A stretch of 64,000 nucleotides of DNA. It comes from Clostridium sp. MD294 (GTDB lineage: Bacteria > Bacillota > Clostridia > Lachnospirales > Anaerotignaceae). The position numbers and the translations under genes were made by a program. How positions within the stretch are numbered: position 1 is the first letter of the stretch; each line of letters starts with the position of its first letter. The notes under the pieces are model-generated. The model saw only the letters and a list, made by a program, of their open reading frames with translations, ran no database searches and was not told the DNA's origin. Shown piece after piece: positions 19,910 to 28,095 of the stretch. The stretch spans positions 620,001-684,000 of the forward strand of contig NZ_CP097810.1 in assembly GCF_000364165.2 (NCBI RefSeq), given 5' to 3'.

Positions 19910-20358
19910 TTAGTCTAATTTCATGATTGTTATATTTGCTTCTGCATAATCTGCACTCGTATTGCTTGCAATTAACCTAATAGTAGAAGGAGGGGTTACT
20001 ACAGTAACAATTGCATTACTTGCTAATGTTGTTGCTTGGTTTAATTCAGTAATTGTTGCAGAAGAAGAACTTCCTTGTATTTTAACGCCATCTTGTTCTA
20101 AATGCAGTGTTGCTGTAATAGGTGGTGTTACTCCTGCTGCATCACTTGTTGTAGTATCATAGTGTATTACATAAATTCCTGTTTCATTTAACACAAAATC
20201 TCCTGTACCTGCAGTATGTTGTATGCCCGTACCTGCTTCTGCTCTATTTGTGTCAAATATTAAAGCAGTATTTGCTGCTGTTGGTGTCTGTTCTGCATTA
20301 TTTATAGCATTTAATACATTTGTTGAGATAACACCTGTTGCCCCCGTTGCCCCTGTTG
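19910..20358 (-). CDS. 3' part of a split BclA-like exosporium collagen gene
   Basis: The minus frame starts inside a collagen repeat (Gly-Ala-Thr units encoded at 20333-20353) and continues for about 147 residues into a globular domain with the BclA/TNF-like pattern (STNVLNAINNAEQ, FVLNETGIYVIHYDT, ITATLHLEQDG, ending YAEANITIMKLD). No start codon precedes the repeat: an in-frame TAA lies at about 20369-20371. The first ATG (20194) is inside the globular domain, so the piece is not a gene by itself. Joined at the TGTTG core to the 5' part (27016-28095) it is in frame. In BclA the C-terminal domain drives trimerisation of the hair-like nap. It is either restored by excision or a remnant. Confidence 0.8.
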
Positions 20359-20359
20359 A

Positions 20360-20377
20360 AACATTTATTTATGCAAA
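20360..20377 (+). repeat. left att arm (inverted copy 1)
   Basis: AACATTTATTTATGCAAA, just inside the left core. It matches the inverted right arm at 17 of 18 positions. Large serine integrases bind such inverted arms of attP. Confidence 0.8.
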
Positions 20378-20382
20378 ACATT

Positions 20383-26258: not shown

Positions 26259-26292
26259 TATAAATACTCACTTCCTTATTGTTTACATCTGA

Positions 26293-26958
26293 TTATTCTA
26301 TCATTCCAGCTAATTGTCCATAACTAAAATATTCAGAATATTCTGACTTAAGTATTCTATCTGCATAATATTCCAACCAATCCAAAAAATTCATTGTTGT
26401 TTTTTTGATAGGATCAATAAGAGGAAATATTCCCGCATCATTTGCCATATCAAAATACCAAACGGTACCATAAGTATTTTTGTCCTCTGTATTCACAATT
26501 AATATGCTGTACATACCACAACCTTCATGACATAAATAAATATATCCTGCATCAAAAGTAATTTGTTGTTCGTTTTCTTGTTCAGACAGTTCTTCATCTT
26601 CATCACAAAATAATTCATCATACTCTTCATCAGAAAGTGCTGCAATATTTAAAGGATTTCTCACAGTATATTTGAACTTTTCATTTATAGCAACATCTTG
26701 CTGTATTTCCGAAACAATACTATAAAGTCCATAAAATGGCTGTGTTCCACTACTCGCTATTTTTGTAATAAATGTTTTATAGTCTTGAGGTAGTGTAATA
26801 TGATGTATATTTTCAAATGCTGAAACTTGTTCTTCTGTCAATGGTTTTTCCCATACTGGAGGAAATTTTCCGCCAGAAAATCGTAGCTTTTTATCAGAAA
26901 GCTTGTCTATTTTTTTCATAATTATGTTTATTCTTTGTTCTATATCCATATCTGTCAT
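26293..26958 (-). CDS. SMI1/KNR4 (SUKH)-domain protein
   Basis: A 221-residue acidic protein with the SUKH-1 pattern: PLTEEQVSAFENIHHITLPQDYKTFI (about residues 37-62), then GLYSI, ICH-like YLCHEGCGMYSILIV (about 146-160), GTVWYFD, and a final FLDWLEYYADRIL helix. SUKH proteins are often immunity proteins of contact or polymorphic toxins, but many are orphans. No toxin partner is seen next to it. A second in-frame ATG (26949) has better spacing to GGAG than the first. It is the right-most cargo gene, 58 nt from the split collagen gene. Confidence 0.72.
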   Translation of the reverse strand: MTDMDIEQRINIIMKKIDKLSDKKLRFSGGKFPPVWEKPLTEEQVSAFENIHHITLPQDYKTFITKIASSGTQPFYGLYSIVSEIQQDVAINEKFKYTVRNPLNIAALSDEEYDELFCDEDEELSEQENEQQITFDAGYIYLCHEGCGMYSILIVNTEDKNTYGTVWYFDMANDAGIFPLIDPIKKTTMNFLDWLEYYADRILKSEYSEYFSYGQLAGMIE

Positions 26959-27015
26959 ACTCCTTTTTTAATAATATTATACTACTGATAATGTATAAAT
27001 TCAAATATAAATTCA

Positions 27016-28095
27016 CTACATTTTTTTAAAATTTGCATAAATATATGTTGCTGTTGCTCCCTGTGGTCCTGTTGCTCCTGTTGGCCCTGTCGCTCCTGTT
27101 GGTCCTATCGCTCCTGTTGGCCCTATTTCTCCTGTTGGTCCCGTTGCTCCTACTGGCCCTGTCGCTCCTGTTGGTCCTGTCGCTCCTGTTGGTCCTATCG
27201 CTCCTGCTGGCCCTGTCGCTCCTGTTGGCCCTATTTCTCCTGTTGGTCCTGTTACTCCTGTTGCTCCTGTTGGTCCTATTTCTCCTGTTGGTCCCGTTGC
27301 TCCTGTTGGTCCTGTCGCTCCTGTTGGTCCCGTTGCTCCCGCTGGCCCTGTTGCTCCTGCCACCGAAACAAGTTGAAAATCTGCTGAACTGTCTGGTATA
27401 CCTGAAGGATTATTTACATTAGCACGATATAAAGAACCATTATAAAATAATAAATCACCTTGTACATATGACGTTCCTGCCACAAAATTTGTAGCAGCTG
27501 TTAATCCAGGTCCCATTGCTCCCGTTGCTCCTGCTGGTCCCGTTGGTCCCGCTGGCCCTGTTGGCCCTGATGGTCCTGTTGGCCCTGATGGCCCTGTTGG
27601 TCCTGATGGCCCTGTTGCTCCTGCTGGCCCTGTTGCTCCTGTTGACCCTGTTGCTCCTGTTGGTCCCGTTGGTCCTGTTGCTCCTGCTGGTCCCGTTGGT
27701 CCTACTGGTCCTGATGGTCCTGTTGCTCCTGTTGGCCCTGATGGTCCTGTTGCTCCTGTTGCTCCTGTCGCTCCTGCTGGTCCTGTTGGTCCCGATATTC
27801 CCGCTGGCCCCGTTGCTCCTGCTGGGCCTTGTGCTCCCTGTAAACCTTGTACACCTTGTGGTCCTGTTGCTCCTACTGGGCCTGTATTTCCTGTAATGCC
27901 TTGTGGCCCTTGTGGGCCTTGTAATCCTCTTGGACCTTGTGGCCCTGCTGGGCCTACTGGACCTTGTGGGCCTTGCGGACCTTGTGGTCCAGGACAAGGA
28001 ATACCACCTGTACAATTAGGACGACAATTATTTTGATTTCCACAGCAACCACAAGAAGTATTAACACGATATCTGTTATCATTGTAATTTTGCAT
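27016..28095 (-). CDS. 5' part of a split BclA-like exosporium collagen gene
   Basis: As it stands the frame gives 359 residues. A Cys/Asn-rich N-terminus (TSCGCCGNQNNC) is followed by Gly-X-Y collagen repeats, first Gly-Pro-Gln rich then Gly-Ala/Pro-Thr (about residues 32-198). A 55-residue non-collagen insert (FVAGTSYVQGDLLFYNGSLY) follows, then a second collagen tract (about 250-347). The last 11 residues (TYIYANFKKM) read into the right arm of the recombinase element and break the repeat. Spore-surface collagens normally end in a globular domain, missing here but present at 19910-20358. Codons 1-348 end exactly at the recombination core. A sigma-K-like promoter and GGAGG lie upstream. Confidence 0.88.
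   Translation of the reverse strand: MQNYNDNRYRVNTSCGCCGNQNNCRPNCTGGIPCPGPQGPQGPQGPVGPAGPQGPRGLQGPQGPQGITGNTGPVGATGPQGVQGLQGAQGPAGATGPAGISGPTGPAGATGATGATGPSGPTGATGPSGPVGPTGPAGATGPTGPTGATGSTGATGPAGATGPSGPTGPSGPTGPSGPTGPAGPTGPAGATGAMGPGLTAATNFVAGTSYVQGDLLFYNGSLYRANVNNPSGIPDSSADFQLVSVAGATGPAGATGPTGATGPTGATGPTGEIGPTGATGVTGPTGEIGPTGATGPAGAIGPTGATGPTGATGPVGATGPTGEIGPTGAIGPTGATGPTGATGPQGATATYIYANFKKM
27032..27049 (-). repeat. right att arm (inverted copy 2)
   Basis: On the minus strand AACATATATTTATGCAAA, two bases inside the right core. The rebuilt attP would be arm, 8 bp, arm (44 bp), with central dinucleotide GT lying within the shared TGTTG. Confidence 0.8.

Follow-up and report, generated by a model that had tools for sequence, protein, structure and literature searches.

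Programmed gene rearrangement in sporulation involves a handful of genes in the literature available to us (sigK, spsM, spoVFB, gerE and yabG). As far as the accessible text of each source goes, the gin element, which is 28.6 kb long and carries three recombinases, interrupts gerE in Bacillus cereus ATCC 10987 and has been shown to be excised in sporulation (PMC5595907); the recombinase SpoIVCA of B. subtilis is under the control of sigmaE and SpoIIID (PMC5025042); and the bclA1-3 genes of C. difficile are under the control of sigmaK, a sigmaK promoter in that species having the -10 sequence CATATAAT and a -35 AC (PMC3789822). In this paper we describe a BclA-like gene (28095-19910, minus strand) of Clostridium sp. 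MD294, a bacterium likely to live in the gut. The gene lies in two halves, separated by an element of 6,698 bp that encodes a large serine recombinase. Positions are those of the window, that is, the 64,000-nucleotide stretch 620001-684000 of the single-contig, 2.92-Mb genome of this strain (G000). From comparisons of sequence we estimate at roughly four in five the probability that the mother cell excises the element in the course of sporulation, rejoining the halves into a gene for a BclA-like protein of 495 residues.

Both a Gly-X-Y repeat and a BclA-type C-terminal domain are present in the split gene, the 5' part matching Collagen (PF01391, E 4e-40) and the 3' part BclA_C (PF18573, E 1e-9, with a score of 38.8 bits where the cut-off is 38). 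The structure of the 3' part was also modelled from four sequences, with a mean predicted local distance difference test score (pLDDT) of 67.9, and the top four fold matches of the model are BclA C-terminal domains (2r6q, 3tyj, 2z5w and 1wck; template modelling score about 0.45). While the element is in place, the reading frame of the 5' part, on the minus strand, spans 359 aa (28095 to 27016). The initial annotation had counted 348 codons in the 5' part (28095-27052) and 148 codons including the stop in the 3' part (20353-19910), and the frame check confirms both counts. It had also pointed to residues at the end of the 5' part that break the repeat, to a 3' part without a start codon and to a BclA-type domain in the latter. 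These residues, which end the 5' part as YIYANFKKM, are encoded by an arm of the element, no in-frame start codon was found in the 3' part from the upstream stop to the core, and the domain call is upheld by the family and fold matches. From its homology to BclA the protein is predicted to lie in the exosporium or at the spore surface. No second collagen-like gene was found in the genome (completeness 92%), all five PF01391 matches at E 0.001 falling in the split gene or antisense to it, and sigK is a single uninterrupted frame of 239 codons.

The junctions have the geometry of a recombinase attachment site (Table 1). At the recombinase end the order is GTTTTGCATAAATAAATGTTTCA, AC and the Gly-X-Y frame, and at the other end the 5' part, AC and an inverted copy of the arm. 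The inverted arms around the central dinucleotide, as in an attP (circle) site, agree at 18 of 23 positions in the window and likewise at 18 of 23 in a congener (G002), and nowhere else in the window's element is the agreement as high as 17. The distance from core to core is 6,698 bp, and in both halves AC stands at codon phase 0 as the first two bases of a Thr codon, so that excision would restore the frame (347 + 148 residues), in keeping with the element length and the exact in-frame restorability claimed at the outset. Six bases, CAACAG, are common to both junctions, and crossover anywhere within them would give the identical product. The recombinase matches PF00239, PF07508 and PF13408, all over cut-off, as well as YokA chains 9dxh and 9dxd; YokA we take to be SprA. 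Its putative catalytic serine, S23, is invariant across seven aligned recombinases, YxR[LI]S presumably being the motif of the conserved catalytic serine in large serine recombinases. As in the intervening elements of sporulation genes (skin, SPbeta/spsM, vfbin, gin and yin), a serine-recombinase element here splits a coding region and its precise excision would restore the frame; the uninterrupted gene exists in a congener (G001).

That congener emerged from a comparison of five genomes of the genus (G000-G004), in which a search for an uninterrupted gene of about 495 codons, as the initial annotation had proposed, was run. The split state is present in G000 and G002, and G001 has an uninterrupted frame of 481 codons; a more distant match in G004 lies close to a contig start, and G003 has no match to the gene. 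The gene of G001 adjoins a homologue (by eye) of the C45-family gene that lies upstream in the window and in G002. The element and its flanks are syntenic between G000 and G002, with a DNA identity of 82-90% in long blocks, and the two recombinases are 84% identical with a ratio of nonsynonymous to synonymous substitution rates (dN/dS) of 0.19; the element of G002 additionally holds an SDR-like gene (named by eye) and a DUF6870 gene. Over 146 codons of the start-less half, 62 of 438 bases differ between these two genomes, with 0 gaps, 0 stops and a dN/dS of 0.40. Amino-acid-changing codons number 27, against 39.8 expected neutrally (P about 0.0001 in 20,000 simulations), and on this comparison the start-less half is under purifying selection in both genomes.

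We used the seven aligned recombinases to scan genome_contigs (84,980 species, each represented by a single genome) and kept the best 80 loci of 454 relatives. By our own criteria, Gly-X-Y coding DNA is the site of 49 of the 80 loci; a script placed 50 in this class, and one (L059) was reassigned on reading to the group described next. The core is TT at 15 loci (L047-L057, L059, L065, L072 and L077), 14 of which look like the Walker-A beginning of an ABC-transporter ATPase, L077 being the exception; this reading was made by eye from what we take to be the Walker-A motif. The remaining 16 loci have other or unclear sites. Within the same loci, a Gly-X-Y run begins inside the next 200 bp at 1.4% of positions, and at 16 other recombinase loci (L001-L004, L006-L008 and L015-L023) no such run was found within 1.5 kb on either side of the match at 15; the exception, L015, groups with the clade on a long branch. 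In a tree made by a quick method, with support from the Shimodaira-Hasegawa-like approximate likelihood-ratio test (SH-aLRT) only, the collagen-sited loci are scattered over the clade, and those of the TT group form, together with L066, a single nested branch. As far as these sequences go, the element of the window is one case of a large recombinase clade that is often sited in collagen-like genes.

Many recombinases of the clade that sit in Gly-X-Y coding DNA also share one position of the core within the triplet. At 43 loci with at least four triplets in register, 31 genes are co-oriented with the recombinase, 10 are opposed and two are ambiguous. The core of the co-oriented genes is AC in 26, CA in three, AG in one and GT in one, and that of the opposed genes is GT in 10 of 10, which is AC on the gene strand. 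The opposed insertions (L058, L073 and others) at first looked like the work of an inverter, and an inversion switch was considered and rejected: as GT beside the recombinase is AC on the gene strand, these are insertions in the other direction.

Several further loci of the clade have unusual arrangements. In L034 (6309-10685) the element holds, by eye, a complete second collagen-like gene that lies between the 5' part and the recombinase. After position 11635 of L069 and in the 3' parts of L061 and L089, an element-type tail or arm follows a few to some dozens of Gly-X-Y codons, as if two elements shared one collagen gene. Three viral contigs of IMG/VR (L160-L162), probably one element seen three times, have a clade recombinase (46% identity) at a Gly-X-Y run of 89 triplets.

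Upstream of the recombinases, a sigmaE-type pattern, ATA-N15-18-CATANNNT, is present in 33 of 49 collagen-sited elements (48 relatives and the window), against 2.2 expected. It is present in 9 of 16 elements at other sites (0.5 expected), in none of 14 of the TT/ABC-type sister group (0.2 expected) and in none of 13 regions before more distant recombinases; among the 80 loci the regions of L072 and L117 were too short for this count. Among non-redundant regions the figures are 24 of 38 for the collagen-sited elements (1.7 expected), 4 of 11 for the others and 0 of 4 for the TT group. The spacing has a peak at 17 (18 regions) and 16 (5), with 0-4 regions at every other spacing from 8 to 26, and on the reverse strand the pattern occurs in 4 of 38 regions. 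In G002 a similar motif is located before the DUF6870 gene. An ACA box lies 2-5 bases after ATA in 15 of 30 motif matches, as against 37 of the 551 remaining ATA in these regions; this looser box, defined only after the matches had been viewed, is reminiscent of SpoIIID sites and is absent from the window and G002. The sequence WWRRACARNY, which we take to be the strict SpoIIID consensus, is found in 4 of the 28 elements that have the motif (background 0.018 per 40 nt). Before the host genes (23 split or cut and three intact), a sigmaK-type pattern, AC-N15-18-CATANNNTA, was found in 11 of 26 against 0.35 expected from first-order shuffles; the stretch scanned began 150 bp ahead of the open frame and ended at the first Gly-X-Y, so that some of these matches may lie in coding sequence. 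The sigmaK-type motif of the window is kept in G000, G002 and G001 inside the same longer conserved sequence.

These motifs suggest an order of events in the mother cell. SigmaE, in many relatives together with SpoIIID, would activate the recombinase; the two junctions would be brought into synapsis and a circle released; and sigmaK would then transcribe the rejoined gene, yielding the predicted BclA-like spore-surface protein. The spore would inherit an untouched chromosome, and the element would thereby be kept. We infer both excision in MD294 and its restriction to the mother cell.

A second genus of the family points in the same direction. An alignment search for BclA_C in 58 genomes of the family gave a match in 13. 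About 2.8 kb of DNA, with mutY and a more distant recombinase, interrupts the gene in G013 (L142) and G026 (L141), and in G034 (L140) mutY, the recombinase and the 3' half stand in the same order, 2,723 bp from core to core. In each of the three genomes a single mutY scores over the family cut-off, and it lies in the element. For the start-less half, dN/dS is 0.041 in the comparison of G026 with G013, and the alignment to G034 is free of gaps. Between the former two, the synonymous divergence (dS) is 1.92 for the recombinase as against 0.92 for mutY and 0.47 for the 3' half, and the recombinase may have been replaced or be fast-evolving. The 5' half of G034 is on a separate contig that ends before the junction. 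The contig with the recombinase (G034:C78) begins with 99 bp that are identical to the recombinase end at 2724-2822. The first copy continues into mutY and the second into BclA_C, and the first reads as an attP junction whose arms agree at 11 of 13 positions (15 of 22) around AC. Such an overlap is the trace left in an assembly graph by a sequence with two continuations, and the sample of G034 thus probably contained both circular (or tandem) and integrated forms. In a test for contig-end overlaps among L030-L147, six loci had at least 31 bp, L140 being the only one in which the overlap lay at an element end.

The initial annotation had compared the locus of MD294 with known developmental elements. 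The comparison gains support from the attachment-site geometry, the states of G001 and G002, the selection on the start-less half, the intact sigK, the promoter-type motifs and the related circle junction, all of them features of sequence. For the clade as a whole we lean, with less assurance, to a broader reading: that in Clostridia it is dedicated to collagen-like spore genes, that its operon is under sigmaE and SpoIIID, and that on at least two occasions it has been domesticated for a programmed splicing of spore-surface DNA, in one case with capture of the host's only mutY inside the segment removed. In this broader reading crossover takes place at the Thr codon of a Gly-X-Thr triplet, so that every insertion and excision would keep the frame.

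Table 1. Features of the split gene, its element and the adjoining host sequence (window positions)
Feature	Position	Strand	Basis
5' part: N-terminus, collagen repeat, middle domain, collagen repeat, up to core; 347 codons then core	27053..28095	-	ORF (open reading frame) list, Pfam, junction analysis
Element-encoded tail (ending YIYANFKKM) and stop, closing the 5' part while the element is in	27016..27052	-	
3' part, start-less: final Gly-X-Y triplets and BclA_C domain	19910..20356	-	
Core dinucleotide AC, 5'-part junction	27053..27054	-	placed by arm symmetry
Core dinucleotide AC, 3'-part junction	20355..20356	-	placed by arm symmetry
Distal attP arm, 23 nt, inverted match to proximal arm at 18/23	27030..27052	-	
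Proximal attP arm GTTTTGCATAAATAAATGTTTCA, beside recombinase	20357..20379	-	
Large serine recombinase, 537 aa: Resolvase, Recombinase, Zn ribbon	20383..21996	-	ORF, Pfam, alignment
SigmaE-type motif ATA-N16-CATATTTT, 88 nt upstream of recombinase start	22058..22084	-	pattern match
SigmaK-type motif AC-N16-CATATATTA, upstream of 5' part	28135..28161	-	pattern match
Cargo: regulator with sugar-binding domain PF04198, SorC/DeoR type	22155..23159	+	
Cargo: transaldolase/fructose-6-phosphate aldolase family protein	23162..23839	+	
Cargo: uncharacterised protein, 180 aa	23875..24417	-	
Cargo: DUF3788 protein	24761..25174	-	
Cargo: uncharacterised protein, 259 aa	25213..25992	-	
Cargo: uncharacterised protein, 89 aa	25989..26258	-	
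Cargo: SMI1/KNR4 (SUKH-1) protein	26293..26958	-	
spoIIID, sporulation regulator, host gene adjoining 3' part	19524..19778	+	TIGR02844 over cut-off

A Pfam scan of the recombinase and the seven cargo proteins found no phage gene, as in gin. The regulator and aldolase-family genes (22155-23839) are under purifying selection between G000 and G002 (dN/dS 0.17 and 0.12). Elsewhere the genome of MD294 has tandem groups of three different large serine recombinases (G000:C1:2795523-2799616 and 1232787-1236880), and PF07508 matches number 17 in all. A DUF6870-like ORF lies at most 500 bp upstream of the recombinase in 46 of the 80 loci, G002 included; these ORFs were found by a short motif, and two were confirmed by Pfam. 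The predicted protein has about 75 aa and is encoded directly upstream of the recombinase, as for example in L029 (9424-9660). By size and place only, DUF6870 is a possible directionality factor; the family was not mentioned in the open-licence literature searched. As an obligatory part of the element it was considered and rejected, the window's element being without it. That element has four small ORFs of 26-37 codons outside the larger genes, for which, as candidate directionality factors, no clear counterpart was seen by eye in G002.

The most serious alternative is that of a selfish mobile element which prefers Gly-X-Y DNA as its attachment site, breaks the host gene and is excised rarely and without any programme. 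Many of the relatives are plainly mobile elements, since identical recombinases occur in different families (L111 with L112; L097, L098 and L099) and at non-collagen sites too (L098, L099 and L116), and the viral contigs with such a recombinase at Gly-X-Y DNA fit this view. Both states of the gene also exist among close relatives, a split relative of the same gene type (L045) having an uninterrupted counterpart in protein P0003, which is 95% and 91% identical to its two halves. A merely selfish element would not, however, account readily for a split common to two congeners and to three species of another genus with start-less halves under purifying selection, for a sigmaE-type motif that many collagen-sited elements have and the ABC-type sister group lacks, or for an element that in the other genus contains only mutY and the recombinase, and we think this explanation unlikely.

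Reversible phase variation of the spore collagen in growing cells, without any tie to the mother cell, is considerably less probable still. The circle junction of G034 indicates recombination in a population and not its timing, and a single culture of C. botulinum had the yin element in both states, according to the part of PMC10747680 available to us. The promoter motifs, on the other hand, point to the mother cell, and loss of the only mutY over the family cut-off, which is inside the element in G013, G026 and G034, would presumably be costly in growing cells. That the 3' half is expressed alone or is a decaying pseudogene, and that the halves never rejoin, is scarcely credible: the half of G002 has an in-frame ATG and 8 of 34 co-oriented 3' halves (window included) have some in-frame start before the core, but 26 have none, a Shine-Dalgarno-like sequence accompanies the start in a single one, and 28 are nevertheless open for at least 130 codons, and there is no decay in G000 and G002.

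A number of observations nonetheless weigh against programmed excision in the mother cell. The promoter calls are pattern matches, and the chosen sigmaE-type pattern is the loosest of three tried on 66 regions (42 matches against 3.1 expected, as compared with 2 against 0.18 for a stricter sigmaE pattern and 5 against 1.4 for sigmaK). Such motifs are missing before 15 of 26 host genes, as well as from 14 of 38 non-redundant collagen-sited elements and from two of the three elements with mutY. DUF6870 is absent from the window's element, with five copies elsewhere in the genome. A stop-free 3' half is by itself unremarkable (P 0.32 in neutral simulation), and the in-frame ATG of G002, which has no Shine-Dalgarno-like sequence, is derived from the arm. 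The attP (circle) junction of the window's own element, sought as an exact pattern, had 0 matches in viral_contigs. When the middle domain of the 5' part was used as a protein query, 18 matches came up, all at 59% identity or less in the queried region (P0001-P0003 were inspected, and P0001 and P0002 compared), so that no uninterrupted copy from the species of the window is among the 18; P0003, the counterpart of the L045 gene, came from this search.

A repeat-coding sequence found in many collagen-like genes is here the attachment site of a widespread recombinase clade, with the ABC-type-sited sister group, which lacks the sporulation-type motif, as a natural control. Why intervening elements occupy mother-cell genes thereby becomes a question that can be tested comparatively. 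A further prediction is that the database entries for collagen-like spore genes of Clostridia are in many cases incomplete, the true protein being made in the mother cell only. The captured sole mutY, if true, would be a host repair gene physically linked to an element that is discarded in a dying cell.

The comparisons that follow are limited to the available parts of the papers cited. The locus resembles gin in being a non-phage serine-recombinase element in a predicted mother-cell gene, with an imperfect inverted repeat around a central dinucleotide; gin, however, interrupts a regulator gene, whereas the window's element is 6.7 kb long, has one recombinase, lies in a collagen-like gene and has its crossover in a repeat that recurs in many genes. 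With SPbeta in spsM of B. subtilis (SprA/SprB; PMC4191935) it shares a spore-surface gene and a large serine recombinase, and SPbeta excision is timed by a mother-cell promoter. SPbeta is, however, an active phage in a polysaccharide gene, timed through a directionality factor, whereas no phage gene was found in the window's element, whose motif lies before the recombinase. The arrangement of sigmaE and SpoIIID suggested by the motifs recalls skin in sigK (SpoIVCA in B. subtilis; CD1231/CD1234 in C. difficile; PMC5025042), although the target of skin is a sigma factor gene, and sigK is uninterrupted here. The yin element in yabG of C. botulinum (PMC10747680) also splits a sporulation gene and circularises, but it is prophage-like, and both gene and recombinase differ. 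The protein itself is like BclA of Bacillus anthracis and bclA1-3 of C. difficile in its collagen-like repeat and BclA-type C-terminal domain; for those genes, unlike that of the window, the available text (PMC3789822, PMC13188886) mentions no interruption by a recombinase element, and the C. difficile BclA survey does not use the word recombinase once in its main text. What appears to be new is the target, the recombinase clade and its breadth, the use of the repeat for attachment, the sister group and the capture of mutY, none of which was found in the open-licence literature searched. In its manner of working the element would belong with skin, SPbeta/spsM and gin, a membership that depends on its excision in sporulation.

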